DNA of 34,976 nucleotides. Origin: Longicatena caecimuris (lineage in GTDB: Bacteria; Bacillota_I; Bacilli_A; Erysipelotrichales; Erysipelotrichaceae). The notes under the pieces are model-generated. The model ran no database searches. It had not been told where the DNA came from and worked only from the letters and a program-made list of their open reading frames with translations. The stretch is from contig NZ_SMBP01000027.1 in NCBI RefSeq assembly GCF_004341945.1, positions 1 through 34,976 on the forward strand. The letters run 5' to 3'. Below are positions 24,982 to 32,945 of the stretch, one piece after another (within the stretch, counting starts at the first letter, position 1; each line of letters starts with the position of its first letter). Both the position numbers and the translations under genes were made by a program.

Positions 24982-25227
24982 TCAAGGTTTTGCACTTTCA
25001 ATAAACCAGCGAGTTCTCTCTAGAAATAAATTACGTTCAACCCCTGCTATACGACAGCGATATAAGATGCCACATCCTCCTACCTGTGATGCTGACTTGC
25101 GGATTTCCAATACCCGATCAATTGGATATTCCATGCCATTGTCCCATATCATGACCTTGGGTATCAGATTGCCATAGCGATCATGTAAAGTCAATACATC
25201 CACATAGCGCTTATACAGTTTCATCAT
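24982..25227 (-). CDS. Small protein encoded directly after DNA polymerase IV
   Basis: An 81-aa soluble protein beginning 2 nt past the dinB stop codon. The sequence YKRYVDVLTLHDRYGNLIPK is followed by VMIWDNGMEYPIDRVLEIRK, then GGCGILYRCRIAGVERNLFL and RTRWFIESAKP. This strand-rich layout with an Arg-Cys-Arg core and a C-terminal RWF is familiar to me from small ORFs next to Y-family polymerases in Bacillota, but I cannot name the family. The tight linkage suggests a polymerase accessory role, comparable in position to YolD next to UvrX. No strong ribosome binding site precedes it, so translation may be coupled. Confidence 0.75.
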   Translation of the reverse strand: MMKLYKRYVDVLTLHDRYGNLIPKVMIWDNGMEYPIDRVLEIRKSASQVGGCGILYRCRIAGVERNLFLERTRWFIESAKP

Positions 25228-26474: not shown

Positions 26475-26495
26475 ATTATCCCGCCTTTCGCATTT

Positions 26496-26523
26496 ATTAT
26501 ACCTCTTTTGTTCCACTTTTCAA
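26496..26523 (-). promoter_or_regulatory. dinB promoter P1 with half-site
   Basis: On the minus strand TTGAAA (26523-26518), a 16-nt spacer and TATAAT (26501-26496). The spacer contains the half-site TGGAACA (26515-26509). Confidence 0.6.
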
Positions 26524-26577
26524 TAAAATTTGGAACATTGGATAACTTTTCCTCTCATTATTATATCAAGTGTTCCA
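26509..26577. promoter_or_regulatory. Three TGTTCCA-type operator half-sites
   Basis: TGTTCCA at 26509-26515, its reverse complement TGGAACA at 26531-26537 and TGTTCCA at 26571-26577. The first two form a dyad with a 15-nt gap; the third lies in the spacer of the distal dinB promoter, facing the repressor promoter. Confidence 0.6.
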
Positions 26578-26588
26578 AAAACTTGTCA
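26560..26588 (-). promoter_or_regulatory. dinB promoter P2
   Basis: On the minus strand TGACAA (26588-26583), a 17-nt spacer and TATAAT (26565-26560). Its -35 shares the six base pairs of the repressor gene's -35. Confidence 0.6.
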
Positions 26589-26611
26589 CAAATGAAAAGT
26601 TATGGTAAACT
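26583..26611 (+). promoter_or_regulatory. Promoter of the LexA/HdiR-like repressor gene
   Basis: TTGTCA (26583-26588), a 17-nt spacer and TAAACT (26606-26611), 22 nt before the start codon. Confidence 0.65.
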
Positions 26612-26633
26612 AAAGTAAAGTGAGGTGCACGCT

Positions 26634-27585: not shown

Positions 27586-28260
27586 ATGTATCGCATTATG
27601 GTAATTGAAGATAACGATAAAATACGTAATGAGCTTTGTGATTTTTTAAGTAAAAACGGATATGAGGCCTTTGGTCCTGCCGAATTTGATCATTTACTGG
27701 AAGATATTCATCAGCAGAAGCCAGATTTACTACTGCTAGATCTAAACCTTCCTGTCGTAGACGGCCATTTTATATGCCGCGAAGTACGTAAGAACAGTGA
27801 ACTCCCTATCATGATCGTCACAAGTCGTGATTCTGATATGGATGAATTAATCAGCATGAATCTTGGTGCCGATGATTTTGTGACAAAACCATATAACCTG
27901 CAAATTCTATTAGCAAGAATTTCCCGTATCTTACAGCGTTCCTATGAGCACGCTTCCAGCAACCAATTGATGATTCATGATATCGTCTTAGATATATCCA
28001 AAAGCACCCTCAATTGGAAAGGCAACAGTGTTGATTTAACAAAAAATGAATTACGCATCATGCATTGTCTGTTTCAAAATAAAAATAAGATTGTTTCCCG
28101 CAATGAGTTGATGCAGCATATGTGGGATTGTGATCTGTTTGTTGATGATAACACCTTAACGGTCAATATTAACCGCCTGCGTAAGAAATTGGAATATCTG
28201 CGATTGGATGATTTGATTCAGACAAAACGTGGTATGGGATACATTATTTATGAAGATTAA
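27586..28260 (+). CDS. bceR: Response regulator, OmpR family, BceR type
   Basis: A 224-aa regulator. The receiver (1-118) has the acidic pair Glu8-Asp9, phospho-acceptor Asp52 in LLLLDLNLPVVDG, Thr80 in MIVTSRDSD, and Lys in DDFVTKPY. The C-terminal winged helix (about 128-222) has LTKNELRIMHCLFQNKNKIV, MQHMWD and NRLRKKLEYL ending in the GMGYI wing. It is followed by the kinase with an 11-nt overlap and by a BceAB transporter, so it is expected to activate that transporter when peptide antibiotics such as bacitracin or lantibiotics are sensed. The site at 29874-29889 is its likely target. Confidence 0.92.
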   Translation: MYRIMVIEDNDKIRNELCDFLSKNGYEAFGPAEFDHLLEDIHQQKPDLLLLDLNLPVVDGHFICREVRKNSELPIMIVTSRDSDMDELISMNLGADDFVTKPYNLQILLARISRILQRSYEHASSNQLMIHDIVLDISKSTLNWKGNSVDLTKNELRIMHCLFQNKNKIVSRNELMQHMWDCDLFVDDNTLTVNINRLRKKLEYLRLDDLIQTKRGMGYIIYED

Positions 28261-29263
28261 AGATTATTTATTTGAGAAACTATATTTCATCTTGTTAGGC
28301 TTATTGACCTATGCCATTATCGTGCTATTTCTTTATGGCATAGGAAATAATACGCAGGCCATCATGGTTGTATCTCTATTATATTGGGGCATGCTGCTGG
28401 CAATCCTCATCATTGAATATGTACGCCGTGCATCTTTTTATCAACGTTTGTTAGATACCGCACAATCCTTAGATGAAAAATATTTGCTTACTGAAATGAT
28501 GGAAGAGCCCTTATTCTTAGATGGTAAAATTCTTATGGAAGTATTGCATGAGGTAGATAAATCGATGGCTGATCATGTCAACCTTTATCGTAGTGCACAA
28601 GCCGATTATAAAGATTATATTGAGATGTGGGTTCATGAAATTAAAACCCCACTTGCCGCAGCAAAATTGGTGATTTCTAATAATCCATCCGCCATTACCG
28701 ATAGTTTACATGAAGAAATAGAAAAAGTAGAAAGCTTTGTAGAACAAGCACTTTTCTATGCCCGCAGCACATCAGTAGAAAAGGATTATCTGATTAAAGA
28801 ATTATCGCTACAAGAATGTATATCCAAGATTTTACGCAAGCATTCTAAAATATTTATCTTACAGAAAATCAGCGTAGAATTATCAAATCTTGACCAAATC
28901 GTATATAGTGATAATAAATGGCTGGAATTTATTCTCGAACAAATCATTTTAAATGCTATCAAATACATGGATAAAGAAGAAAAAACATTGCACATTTATG
29001 CAGAGCGGAAAGAAAATACGATCCACCTGCATATTCAGGATAATGGCATCGGTATTTGTCCAAGTGATATTTCACGCATCTTTGAACGGGGATTTACTGG
29101 TAAAAATGGCCGAATAAATGAGAAAGCAACCGGTATGGGGCTATATTTATGTAAGAGTTTATGCGATAAACTATATTTGGGTATACATGCCGCTTCTTCA
29201 GAAGGTGAAGGCACTACTATAACATTGGATTTTCCCATTAGTACATTGATGCTGTTAAAGTAA
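28250..29263 (+). CDS. bceS: Intramembrane-sensing histidine kinase, BceS type
   Basis: A 337-aa kinase. ATG 28250 overlaps the response regulator's stop codon. It has two membrane helices (about 11-30 and 38-56) joined by a very short extracellular loop, so it has no sensor domain of its own; BceS-type kinases are controlled by the ABC transporter. The H-box is MWVHEIKTPLAAAKL (His129). The N-box (QIILNAIKYMD), G1 (DNGIGI) and G2 (KATGMGLYL) are intact. It is paired with the BceR-type regulator and the downstream transporter. Confidence 0.93.
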   Translation: MKIKDYLFEKLYFILLGLLTYAIIVLFLYGIGNNTQAIMVVSLLYWGMLLAILIIEYVRRASFYQRLLDTAQSLDEKYLLTEMMEEPLFLDGKILMEVLHEVDKSMADHVNLYRSAQADYKDYIEMWVHEIKTPLAAAKLVISNNPSAITDSLHEEIEKVESFVEQALFYARSTSVEKDYLIKELSLQECISKILRKHSKIFILQKISVELSNLDQIVYSDNKWLEFILEQIILNAIKYMDKEEKTLHIYAERKENTIHLHIQDNGIGICPSDISRIFERGFTGKNGRINEKATGMGLYLCKSLCDKLYLGIHAASSEGEGTTITLDFPISTLMLLK

Positions 29264-29288
29264 TTAATTTTTTATAAATTTTATCTAG

Positions 29289-29312
29289 AAGCCTTTAATA
29301 TAAGGCTTTTTA
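29289..29312 (+). terminator. Terminator of the bceRS operon
   Basis: AAGCCTT/AAGGCTT around a 6-nt loop with a TTTTTA tail, 26 nt past the kinase stop codon. Confidence 0.8.
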
Positions 29313-29387
29313 TTGTATAATATGTCGGAATATCTATGGTAAAATATACAAATTTCTGCTAGTATGAACATACAGGGAGGGAGAACT

Positions 29388-29612
29388 ATGAACACAAGTG
29401 AAAAAAACAGTTATCTGATTATCTATGTTCTGCTTGACTTTGTCCGCTATGTAAAAGAATTGGAAAAAGCTGCTACGACAGAAGAAGAGCAAAAACGTAT
29501 TCATGAACAGTGCGACCTTTTACAAAATTATTGTGGATTGTATCTGAAGCAGACACTTGGTGAACGTGAAGTTTCTATTTTTCTAAAAGAAATTCAAGAT
29601 CTGCTAGCCTAG
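29388..29612 (+). CDS. Small helical protein between bceRS and bceAB
   Basis: A 74-aa protein. ATG 29388 stands 4 nt after GGGAGGGAG; the frame upstream to 29364 overlaps that site. The sequence is strongly helical and charged (YLIIYVLLDFVRYVKELEKAA, TEEEQKRIHEQCDLLQNYCG, EVSIFLKEIQDLL), without a signal peptide, with two Cys in the middle. No family is recognised. It has its own terminator and a TATAAT-like element near 29316, so it is probably a separate transcript. A link to peptide resistance is by position only. Confidence 0.7.
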   Translation: MNTSEKNSYLIIYVLLDFVRYVKELEKAATTEEEQKRIHEQCDLLQNYCGLYLKQTLGEREVSIFLKEIQDLLA

Positions 29613-29632
29613 CTGTGGTAAGCAGATAAAAA

Positions 29633-29676
29633 GCTACAGAACGCTTTGTTTTAAACGGGGCATCTGTAGCATTTTT
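29633..29676 (+). terminator. Terminator after the 74-aa ORF
   Basis: A perfect 8-bp stem GCTACAGA/TCTGTAGC with a 22-nt loop, followed by ATTTTTC. Confidence 0.75.
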
Positions 29677-29963
29677 CTTGAAGGATAACGGTTTGCTTTT
29701 ATACTATGCATTTCTTTATGATATGATAACTGCGTTTTTTTATATACGTTTCTTATATGTGAGGATACATACGTTTTCGTATCTGCCTCTTTCTTTTATA
29801 AGATAATGCATTTACATATCTGTCCACAACAAAGCTCATAAGAGATGTGTGTGGAAGATGATAAAAATGCTAACTTACAGAAATGTAAGTATATTGTAAT
29901 ACACATCCATGGCGTAGCAGACACAGATAACGTAAAATATGAGTGTACCATGGAGGTGATGAT
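29677..29963 (+). promoter_or_regulatory. Regulatory region upstream of the bceAB operon
   Basis: About 290 bp without a supported gene. It contains a TCCACA/TGTGGA dyad (29823-29855) and, nearest the operon, the TTACA-N4-TGTAA palindrome. A 27-codon frame starting near 29724 has no ribosome binding site. Confidence 0.6.
29874..29889 (+). promoter_or_regulatory. Candidate BceR binding site and promoter of the bceAB operon
   Basis: CTTACA-GAAA-TGTAAG is a perfect 6-bp dyad with a 4-nt gap. Its left arm provides a CTTACA that lies 17 nt before TAATAC (29897-29902), a plausible -10. The TNACA-N4-TGTAA form is, as I recall, the reported box of BceR-like regulators in lactic acid bacteria. Confidence 0.6.
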
Positions 29964-30146
29964 ATGAAAACATTATGGAATCATCGAATCGAAGGCTGTA
30001 TTTTATGTATGGCGATACTCTTATTTCTACAGACTCTGCTGCCACCATTTTTACATACCGGCATTTACTGGTGTCTGTTCTTCTTATTTCTTATGACCAT
30101 ACTATTATATCGACTTAATGCCATCCATGAGCATTTGCATAAATAA
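29964..30146 (+). CDS. Small two-helix membrane protein, first gene of the bceAB operon
   Basis: A 60-aa protein. ATG 29964 follows GGAGGTG by 7 nt. Two hydrophobic helices (about 10-30 and 32-51) leave short charged ends (KTLWNHRIEG and RLNAIHEHLHK). No family is recognised. It ends 11 nt before the ATPase start, behind the same promoter and candidate BceR site, so it should be made together with the transporter. It may assist or modulate the BceAB-kinase complex, which is a guess from the operon. Confidence 0.75.
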   Translation: MKTLWNHRIEGCILCMAILLFLQTLLPPFLHTGIYWCLFFLFLMTILLYRLNAIHEHLHK

Positions 30147-30157
30147 AGGAGGAGCTT

Positions 30158-30925
30158 ATGAAACCTGTATTAGTTGTAGATAAAATTCAAAAATATTATG
30201 GAAATCGCGGTAACATAACAAAAGCAGTTGATAATATCAGCTTTTCTGTTGAACATGGGGAATTTGTTGGTGTGATGGGACCCAGTGGTTCTGGAAAGAC
30301 GACACTGTTAAACTGTATCTCTACCATCGACACGGTAACCAGTGGTCACATTTTTATCAATGATTCTGATATTACAACATTGAAAAAAGGTGACTTAAGC
30401 AAATTTCGTCGTGAAGAATTGGGCTTTATTTTCCAAGACTTTAATCTGTTAGATACTTTAAATGCTTATGAAAATATTGCTTTAGCATTGACCATCCAAA
30501 AAGTGAAACCAGATACGATTGATAAACGTATCAAAGAAGTAGCTCATAAATTAAATATTCTTGATGTTTTACAAAAATATCCTTACCAGATGTCCGGCGG
30601 TCAAAAACAACGTGTCGCAAGTGCCCGAGCATTAATCACCAATCCAAGCTTGATATTGGCAGATGAACCAACAGGTGCTTTAGATTCCAAATCCAGTCGT
30701 ATGCTATTAGATACTATGGAACATTTAAATCAAGAATTTAACGCAACCATCATGATGGTAACCCACGATGCGTTCACCGCATCCTATGCACATCGTATTT
30801 TATTTATCAAGGATGGTAAGATTTTCAACGAACTTCATCGTGGTAATGACACGCGCAAAGCATTTTTCTCCCGTATTATGGAAGTTGTCACACTATTGGG
30901 AGGTGACATTAGTAATGTACTTTAG
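30158..30925 (+). CDS. bceA: ABC transporter ATPase, BceA type
   Basis: A 255-aa ATPase of the MacB/BceA group. Walker A GPSGSGKTT (about 41-49), Q-loop FIFQDFNLLDTL, signature MSGGQKQRVASARALI, Walker B LILADEPTGALDSKSS and H-loop MMVTHDAFTAS. A strong AAAGGAGG lies before its ATG. Its end overlaps the permease start by 11 nt. With BceB it senses and removes peptide antibiotics from their lipid targets and tells BceS how much transport is needed (family knowledge). Confidence 0.96.
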   Translation: MKPVLVVDKIQKYYGNRGNITKAVDNISFSVEHGEFVGVMGPSGSGKTTLLNCISTIDTVTSGHIFINDSDITTLKKGDLSKFRREELGFIFQDFNLLDTLNAYENIALALTIQKVKPDTIDKRIKEVAHKLNILDVLQKYPYQMSGGQKQRVASARALITNPSLILADEPTGALDSKSSRMLLDTMEHLNQEFNATIMMVTHDAFTASYAHRILFIKDGKIFNELHRGNDTRKAFFSRIMEVVTLLGGDISNVL

Positions 30926-32945
30926 ACTTGCCCTGCGCAATGTCCGAAAAAGTTATAAAGACTTCCTCATATATTTCTTGACCTTAGCCTTTTCTGTCTG
31001 TCTGTTCTATATGTTTAATTCCTTTCAAGAACAACAGGCAGTCATGGAGGTCAGTCAATCACAGATGGAAATGATTAAAATTCTGGTTTATACCATGAAA
31101 TATCTTTCCATCTTTATTGCTATTGTCTTAGCCTTTCTTATTTTATACGCAAATAACTTTTTGATTCGGCGCAGAAAAAAAGAACTTGGTTTATATATGC
31201 TACTTGGAATGCCAAAAAACAAAATATCCCGTGTCTTGGTGTATGAAACATTTATTATCGGTATCTTATCCTTGTTTACCGGCATGCTTATCGGCATCTT
31301 TCTTTCCCAAATCCTGACAAGCGTCACCGCCAATTTATTTGAGGTTTCTTTAGATTATCATTTTATCTACTCAAATAATGCCACTATATTAACCATTTTC
31401 TCCTTTAGTATCATCTTTTTTATTGTCATGTTGTTTAATACCTTCATTTTGAACCGCTATAAACTGATAGACTTAGTAAGAGCAGAACACATCATTGAAC
31501 ACATGCACATTAAAAAGGTTTATTTATCTTTTACGCTATTTATCCTTTCCCTAGCCATACTCGCTTTTACATATCATAAGGCTTTATATGAAAAAAGTCT
31601 GATACTTTCCTTCGATCATCTACCAACCATCATCCTCTATGGCAGCATAGGAACTTTCTTATTTTTCATGTCTTTGGCTGGCTTTCTGATAACAATTATC
31701 AAACGATTTCATACTATTTATTTAAAAAACTTAAATATCTTTATTCTGAACCAGATCAATGCCAAAATAAATTCAAACTATATTTCAATGAGCATTGTTT
31801 GCATCATGCTGTTAATAAGTATCGGGGCATTATCTACCGGCTGGAACATGAATGCAACCATTAATAAGAGTATACGTAATGTGACCCCTTTTGATTATTC
31901 CTTATCTTTACAATATCCATGGGGAAAACATCTTAAACAAATGAACAACGAGCAATTTCAAGCAGTTATTGATAAACTTGGAATAAGCGATGATCCTAAT
32001 ATACAGGAAACAAGAATCACTAGCATGTATATGACAAAACTGCAAAGTGATGTGCATTCCTTCAGTAAATATGTAAGCGATAAAGAACTGCGCAATCTTA
32101 TAAATACGAATGAATTAAATACTTCTATACTGGTGGTTCCCCTTAGTGACTTTAATTATGTTTTAGAAAAAACCGGGAATTCTAAACTTCATTTGAAATC
32201 AAATGAAACTTATCTTTATACGACCATGGCTTTGTTTGATCAAGCTGTTTCTGATATTCTTGCTTCTCATCCTACTATTCAGTTATATAATACTCCACTA
32301 ACGATAATTAATGATACTTATGAAGCTGTTTCCATGTACACCTCCAGCAATATCGGATATGATACCTTTGTTTTTATCATACGGGATGAGCTTATTCCCT
32401 CAAATGCGATTCCCTATGTAAAAGCTTGGAATGTTGAATTAAAAGACCCTACCAAGGAAACTGCATTTGATCAAATGGTAAATCAAAAATTACATACAAA
32501 AAGTGCTAAGCACTATCCTTTTCAAGGACGTTCAGCGCAAATAGTTAAAGAAGCCAATAAAGGCATGTCGGTGATATTTACTTATATTGGTTTATATCTT
32601 GGCATCGTCTTTATGATTGCTAGTGCCATCATCCTAGCACTTCAACAGTTATCACAGGCAAATGATAATAAAAAACACTATGCGATATTAACCAAGATTG
32701 GTACAGATCAGAAAATGTTAAATCGTTCTATCTTTTTACAAATCAGTATATACTTTCTCCTGCCATTATTATTAGCACTCTTACATAGTTTTATCGGTAT
32801 TCAAGTCGTAAATGAATTAGTTTTATTATTCGGTAAAAGTGATATCCTTATCCCTTCTTTCTATACAGCGTGTATTATCACACTTATCTATGGATCTTAT
32901 TTTGCCATTACTTATATCGGATATAAAAATATTTTACGTTCATAA
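30915..32945 (+). CDS. bceB: ABC transporter permease, BceB type
   Basis: A 676-aa permease. ATG 30915 (MYFRLALRNVRKSYKDFLIY) is the family start, following GGGAGGTGA; the frame further upstream belongs to the ATPase gene. An N-terminal helix (about 18-36) is followed by an FtsX-like block (about 60-160, with RRRKKELGLYMLLGMPKNKI). More helices lead to a large extracellular domain of roughly 200 residues (about 320-545), which is diagnostic for BceB, and the last three helices (about 560-670, with ANDNKKHYAILTKIGTD). It is complete. Confidence 0.95.
   Translation: MYFRLALRNVRKSYKDFLIYFLTLAFSVCLFYMFNSFQEQQAVMEVSQSQMEMIKILVYTMKYLSIFIAIVLAFLILYANNFLIRRRKKELGLYMLLGMPKNKISRVLVYETFIIGILSLFTGMLIGIFLSQILTSVTANLFEVSLDYHFIYSNNATILTIFSFSIIFFIVMLFNTFILNRYKLIDLVRAEHIIEHMHIKKVYLSFTLFILSLAILAFTYHKALYEKSLILSFDHLPTIILYGSIGTFLFFMSLAGFLITIIKRFHTIYLKNLNIFILNQINAKINSNYISMSIVCIMLLISIGALSTGWNMNATINKSIRNVTPFDYSLSLQYPWGKHLKQMNNEQFQAVIDKLGISDDPNIQETRITSMYMTKLQSDVHSFSKYVSDKELRNLINTNELNTSILVVPLSDFNYVLEKTGNSKLHLKSNETYLYTTMALFDQAVSDILASHPTIQLYNTPLTIINDTYEAVSMYTSSNIGYDTFVFIIRDELIPSNAIPYVKAWNVELKDPTKETAFDQMVNQKLHTKSAKHYPFQGRSAQIVKEANKGMSVIFTYIGLYLGIVFMIASAIILALQQLSQANDNKKHYAILTKIGTDQKMLNRSIFLQISIYFLLPLLLALLHSFIGIQVVNELVLLFGKSDILIPSFYTACIITLIYGSYFAITYIGYKNILRS

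Follow-up and report, generated by a model that had tools for sequence, protein, structure and literature searches.

We analysed a window of 34,976 nucleotides of Longicatena caecimuris DNA (contig NZ_SMBP01000027.1, positions 1 to 34,976), in which dinB and a gene for a repressor of the XRE/Peptidase_S24 type are divergent and separated by a gap of 159 bp (26475-26633). A third gene, here called P3, lies on the far side of dinB. The genes, and the promoters and repeats between them, are listed in Table 1.

Table 1. Features of the dinB-repressor locus, in window coordinates.
Feature	Position	Strand	Remarks
P3, uncharacterised 81-aa protein	24982-25227	-	2 bp downstream of dinB; conserved repressor partner
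dinB, Y-family (IMS) translesion polymerase, 414 aa	25230-26474	-	Pfam IMS 4e-40, IMS_C 6e-23; NCBIfam DNA polymerase IV models
dinB promoter P1	26496-26523	-	TTGAAA (26518-26523)-16-TATAAT (26496-26501); 11/12 consensus match; conserved in relatives
Candidate operator O1	26509-26537		Dyad TGTTCCA-N15-TGGAACA; both dinB-side half-sites, exact
Dyad ATAACTTTTC / GAAAAGTTAT	26542-26551 and 26594-26603		Exact; 2.2% of shuffles; not conserved
Putative dinB promoter P2	26560-26589	-	Shares repressor -35; 11/12 consensus match; window only
Third half-site	26571-26577	+	TGTTCCA; directly upstream of repressor -35, ending 5 bp before it
Repressor promoter	26583-26611	+	TTGTCA (26583-26588)-17-TAAACT (26606-26611); 9/12 consensus match
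Repressor gene, 194 aa	26634-27218	+	XRE/HTH_3 + Peptidase_S24; Pfam HTH_3 9e-10, Peptidase_S24 7e-24

The predicted cleavage site of the repressor is Ala76-Gly77, with Ser110 and Lys148 as the catalytic dyad. Gly77, Ser110 and Lys148 are invariant in two family alignments; Ala76 is invariant in one of them and conserved at 90% or above in the other. The region around the cleavage site aligns with LexA proteins of solved structure, the full-length matches are CI/LexA-like, and the fold matches of the predicted model (pLDDT 87.5) in the PDB are LexA and CI. With the LexA of Firmicutes the protein has in common the S24 domain, the Ala-Gly cleavage site and the Ser/Lys dyad. It is, however, not LexA by the criteria applied. 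It carries HTH_3, and the winged LexA DNA-binding domain (PF01726) was not found in it; against the LexA model TIGR00498 it scores 77.6 bits, from the S24 domain only and below the cut-off of 110.95; and a direct reading of 26475-26633 found no CGAAC, as in the Firmicutes LexA box CGAAC-N4-GTTCG. It also differs from Firmicutes LexA in its operator and in that no regulon is seen beyond its own locus. Some genomes have two or three paralogues of the repressor, among them the genome of locus L009 (G175) and Breznakia pachnodae (L111, L112); in the latter, one paralogue lies beside dinB and no polymerase turned up at the locus of another.

The preliminary description of this DNA had named, as one of two findings that would count against its reading, a separate LexA controlling dinB through a different site. 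No LexA was found in the genome, which is 99.96% complete and encodes RecA. Its S24 matches are the present repressor, a phage-type repressor on contig 9 and two signal peptidases, its matches to the LexA winged HTH are HrcA and a GntR regulator, and the TIGR00498 cut-off is not reached. The contig 9 repressor (L001) is accompanied by a small divergent HTH gene and an integrase-like gene, and that locus is probably an integrated element. Across the family, the LexA cut-off is exceeded in only 5 of 272 genomes; among these five, one is related to the present repressor and another has internal stops.

Within the gap, the 7-mer TGTTCCA/TGGAACA occurs exactly at all three places previously noted: 26509-26515 (+), 26531-26537 (-) and 26571-26577 (+). 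One 7-mer with at least three G/C appears three times in only 0.3% of dinucleotide shuffles of the 159 bp. Two points go beyond what had been described. The whole half-site pattern is kept across the family (see below), and the two dinB-side copies form one symmetric operator, O1, centred on base 26523, where the P1 -35 element begins. The exact dyad has a single match in the window, against 0.00 expected, and a pattern search found it only once in the 2.95-Mb genome. The third half-site lies 62 bp from the first, in identical orientation. TGTTCCA occurs 16 times across the whole window, against 5.2 expected by shuffling. Lone half-sites carry no information, because the majority of these copies are inside ORFs.

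The -35/-10 pairing of P1 is found again in most relatives, and at the position of the repressor promoter the locus L008 has TTGACA-16-TAAACT. The preliminary description had proposed that the repressor promoter shares its -35 with a second dinB promoter, P2. The letters of P1, P2 and the repressor promoter are all present as described, and a TG precedes the P2 -10. However, a promoter scan of the two closest relatives, L008 and L009, found no minus-strand promoter overlapping the repressor -35, whereas P1, O1 and the third half-site are retained in both; shuffled DNA of like composition yields 1.2 promoter-like matches per region by chance. P2 is, on this comparison, probably not functional. 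Nor did the longer dyad hold up as an element spanning the region. ATAACTTTTC/GAAAAGTTAT is exact in the window, is missing from both L008 and L009, and a 10-bp inverted pair arises in 2.2% of shuffles of the gap; it is probably a chance or lineage-specific match. Both P2 and this dyad were set aside as functional parts, since neither is conserved and the chance levels are not negligible.

A repressor homologue (E<=1e-20) is present in 198 of the 272 family genomes. From family genomes and a set of named genomes that includes Amedibacillus dolichus, Erysipelothrix, Dielma, Sharpea, Traorella, Solobacterium and Breznakia, 110 loci were gathered, 84 of them with distinct upstream regions. Among exact inverted repeats of 7 bp within the 180 bp upstream, a gap of 15 is the commonest (22 of 84 regions, against 1.7 in shuffles); the adjacent odd gaps from 9 to 19 are also raised, because longer arms have the same centre. 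About 50 of the 84 loci have a recognisable dyad of like geometry, centred on a minus-strand -35 (TTNCAA when read on the plus strand). When aligned on the centre, set off here by hyphens, these read HALF-...TTNCA-A-T...-HALF', the constant middle being the minus-strand -35, and in most of them a -10 is spaced 16-18 bp from it.

The half-site letters, in contrast to this geometry, change between lineages. TGTTCCA is found in the window, L008 and L009; GTTGCRT in Erysipelothrix (with a gap one longer) and Solobacterium; GTTTCAT in Sharpea; and elsewhere GTTATCA with ATATCA, ATTACCA with ATTCCCA, TTACGT, GTCTCA and TGTGCAT. The position of the operator is kept over protein identities of 45-55%. 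Fixed geometry with drifting letters is what is expected from selection on a repressor site and not from chance, and we take it as a strong sign that the position of the dyad is under selection.

The third half-site is likewise a family feature. Between the dyad and the repressor start, 41 of 50 loci have a copy of their own half-site (at least 6/7), against 12.8 expected; matches oriented like the left arm number 46, against 9.4; and 16 of these lie at +42/43 from the centre, against 0.3, all of these conservation counts being inflated because the loci are related and not independent. In the window's group the offset is +52/53. The offsets tend to fall at multiples of 10.5 bp (resultant 0.40, shuffles 0.03), which probably places all three half-sites on the same helix face. 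There is no more than a hint that the half-site has co-evolved with the DNA-reading helix: recognition helix and half-site distance have a partial r of 0.21 given the C-terminal domain (p 0.0065), and the correlation disappears (0.06) once the remainder of the HTH domain is allowed for. A strict code between recognition helix and half-site is for that reason unsupported.

The divergent neighbour of the repressor is a Y-family polymerase in 59 of the 84 loci. In 40 it is a dinB like that of the window, followed by P3 in 31 of them, and in 19 a more distant UvrX/UmuC-like polymerase; in a further 17, P3 itself is the divergent gene, with no polymerase alongside. P3 has no match in Pfam or NCBIfam. 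An alignment of 40 P3 sequences has 11 invariant columns, and the predicted model is an all-beta barrel (pLDDT 95). We give it no fold assignment, because neither Foldseek (no PDB match at E<=0.001) nor VIA-align (best Z 3.4) produced a clear relative. On the other flank of the repressor, the window has a two-component system with ABC-transporter genes after it (27586-32945). The same two-component system is found beside the repressor in Erysipelothrix inopinata (L057, 4473-6585), with a permease after it.

Genome-wide, the operator was looked for by pattern searches. The dyad with up to 3 mismatches has 171 matches, against 128 in the control. Fourteen of the 15 mismatched dyads inspected lie inside ORFs, and the sole intergenic one, with 2 mismatches, is upstream of a small lipoprotein-like ORF; the relaxed pattern GTTCC-N15-19-GGAAC occurs 8 times in the genome and 8 times in the control. 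No GTTCC half-site is present in the stretches read of the recA operon and of the region upstream of the second DinB gene. This second DinB (pol IV) gene (L054, contig 1, about 165.5 kb) comes after a gene for a Spo0A C-terminal-like product, and the interval between the two holds no half-site. A genome-wide regulon was accordingly rejected, as the exact dyad is unique, the mismatched ones are nearly all intragenic and the relaxed patterns are at about the level of the control. The expectation that TGTTCCA dyads would be found at repair genes was thus not borne out and, because recA is without an operator site in the stretches read, the locus does not control a full SOS regulon.

Taken together, these features resemble the HdiR system. 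HdiR is a phage-type S24 repressor that replaces LexA in Streptococcaceae and controls itself and UmuC (PMC8565304). The hdiR-umuC loci of Lactococcus and Streptococcus pair a self-cleaving XRE+S24 repressor with a Y-family polymerase in LexA-less Firmicutes, a minimal SOS network (PMC8565304). Switches of this type are further marked by cleavage that RecA stimulates and Clp processing completes, and by induction on damage. The present locus appears, from its sequence, to have the same ingredients: an XRE HTH with S24, the Ala-Gly and Ser-Lys residues, no LexA, and linkage to a Y-family polymerase, the promoter region between the two containing an inverted repeat. It differs in arrangement. 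In S. uberis, the hdiR cassette is a single four-gene operon, whereas here the polymerase is divergent and has the uncharacterised P3 as partner, and the candidate operator consists of a third half-site and a two-turn dyad with the dinB -35 at its centre. The plasmid Y-polymerase loci of Lactococcus and Enterococcus inspected for a comparison of operators have no S24 repressor adjacent. We use the likeness to HdiR as an analogy.

In layout the locus can be compared with UmuDAb/DdrR of Acinetobacter, which also lacks LexA. There an S24 regulator gene is divergent to a small-protein gene and controls error-prone polymerases, and the UmuDAb binding site overlies the -35 elements of both divergent promoters (PMC7273328). 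A divergent S24 regulator gene, a candidate site over a -35 and the presumed control of an error-prone polymerase are the points of likeness; UmuDAb, however, is a member of the UmuD clade with several umuDC loci under its control, against one locus here, and P3 is comparable to DdrR in size and position only. The non-canonical LexA of Bacteroidetes is again a repressor with a phage-like HTH and S24 in an SOS role (PMC8565304), but its operators are short and fixed (GGA-N5-TCC and others) and its SOS regulon is complete, as opposed to a 29-bp candidate operator and a single locus here. The two-turn spacing of the half-sites, longer than that of LexA, was counted against the reading that follows.

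In our best reading, the locus would be a switch for SOS mutagenesis that resembles HdiR, regulates itself and has a regulon of one locus, dinB and P3, and we think it likely that L. caecimuris has here a self-regulated DNA-damage switch in a LexA-less bacterium. The S24 repressor would bind the inverted repeat, with half-sites two helical turns apart, as a dimer or pair of dimers lying across the dinB -35 and touching the third half-site over its own promoter. Since the repeat is centred on the dinB -35, we propose that bound repressor blocks RNA polymerase at dinB-P3. The third half-site, on the same helix face, would cover the edge of the repressor promoter and so provide autoregulation, possibly through contact with repressor at O1; binding may be cooperative. 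Polymerase and repressor would both be held low while repressor is bound. Upon DNA damage, RecA filaments would stimulate cleavage at Ala76-Gly77 and binding would collapse. The locus would then open briefly, the polymerase and P3 would be made, and resynthesis of the repressor would reset the switch. The idea of a compact SOS-like switch with an operator of its own, distinct from LexA boxes, is well supported by the lack of LexA, the retained cleavage residues and the conserved position and geometry of the operator.

Other explanations have to be weighed against this one. The preliminary description held the fuller model, with two dinB promoters, P2 sharing the repressor -35, and half-sites in both spacers. 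P2 does match 11 of 12 consensus positions and has its TG, but it is missing from precisely those two relatives in which P1, O1 and the third half-site persist, and we consider this model unlikely. The observations behind it were largely real and are partly confirmed overall; its interpretation, taken whole, is partly supported. It could also be that the site serves only the autoregulation of the repressor, or that the switch answers a signal other than damage, such as heat or envelope stress, with cleavage not driven by RecA. In Lactococcus HdiR is also heat-responsive, and in S. thermophilus it interferes with competence (PMC8565304); a paper on the LexA-like protein IrvR of S. mutans reports an exception to RecA dependence (PMC7101444). 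The conserved Ala-Gly and Ser/Lys residues, the translesion polymerase divergent from the repressor in most loci and a predicted fold matching the RecA-cleaved LexA and CI argue for damage as the signal, and make this alternative distinctly unlikely.

A phage origin bears on the matter differently. Beyond the family, the closest matches (about 32% identity) are CI-type repressors of phages, on plasmid prophages where they adjoin cro-like and antirepressor genes, and the present repressor could be a domesticated or recently acquired one, its divergent target having replaced cro, the whole a phage remnant of little function. Against this, the locus is stable and chromosomal, homologues are widespread in the family, and the operator position has outlasted considerable divergence of the protein. 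The same two-component/ABC neighbours occur in Erysipelothrix inopinata, which makes this a syntenic, chromosomal locus and not one gained recently from a phage. We regard a mere remnant as very improbable; phage origin and present function are, in any case, compatible. A chance cluster of AT-rich promoter-like words, to which the over-representation of TGTTCCA in the window might point, is scarcely credible: the dyad is unique, position and spacing are conserved though the letters change, and conservation has already refuted chance clustering.

We found nothing on an SOS regulator of Erysipelotrichaceae in the open-access literature. A further proposal, which we offer tentatively and with more doubt than conviction, is that P3 is a conserved damage-inducible target of the repressor, acting as a polymerase accessory or DdrR-like corepressor, and that P3 and the repressor form an SOS module which is widespread among LexA-less Erysipelotrichaceae and so far undescribed, its operator letters drifting and its two-turn geometry over the -35 fixed. 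The locus also draws attention to P3 as a small, uncharacterised family of proteins with ties to translesion synthesis. The related operators, alike in geometry and diverse in half-site sequence, form a natural series that is useful for following how phage-like repressors change specificity. The damage-switch reading predicts a one-locus SOS response, and the locus indicates how a LexA-less, mostly gut- and animal-associated family may control its mutagenic polymerases.
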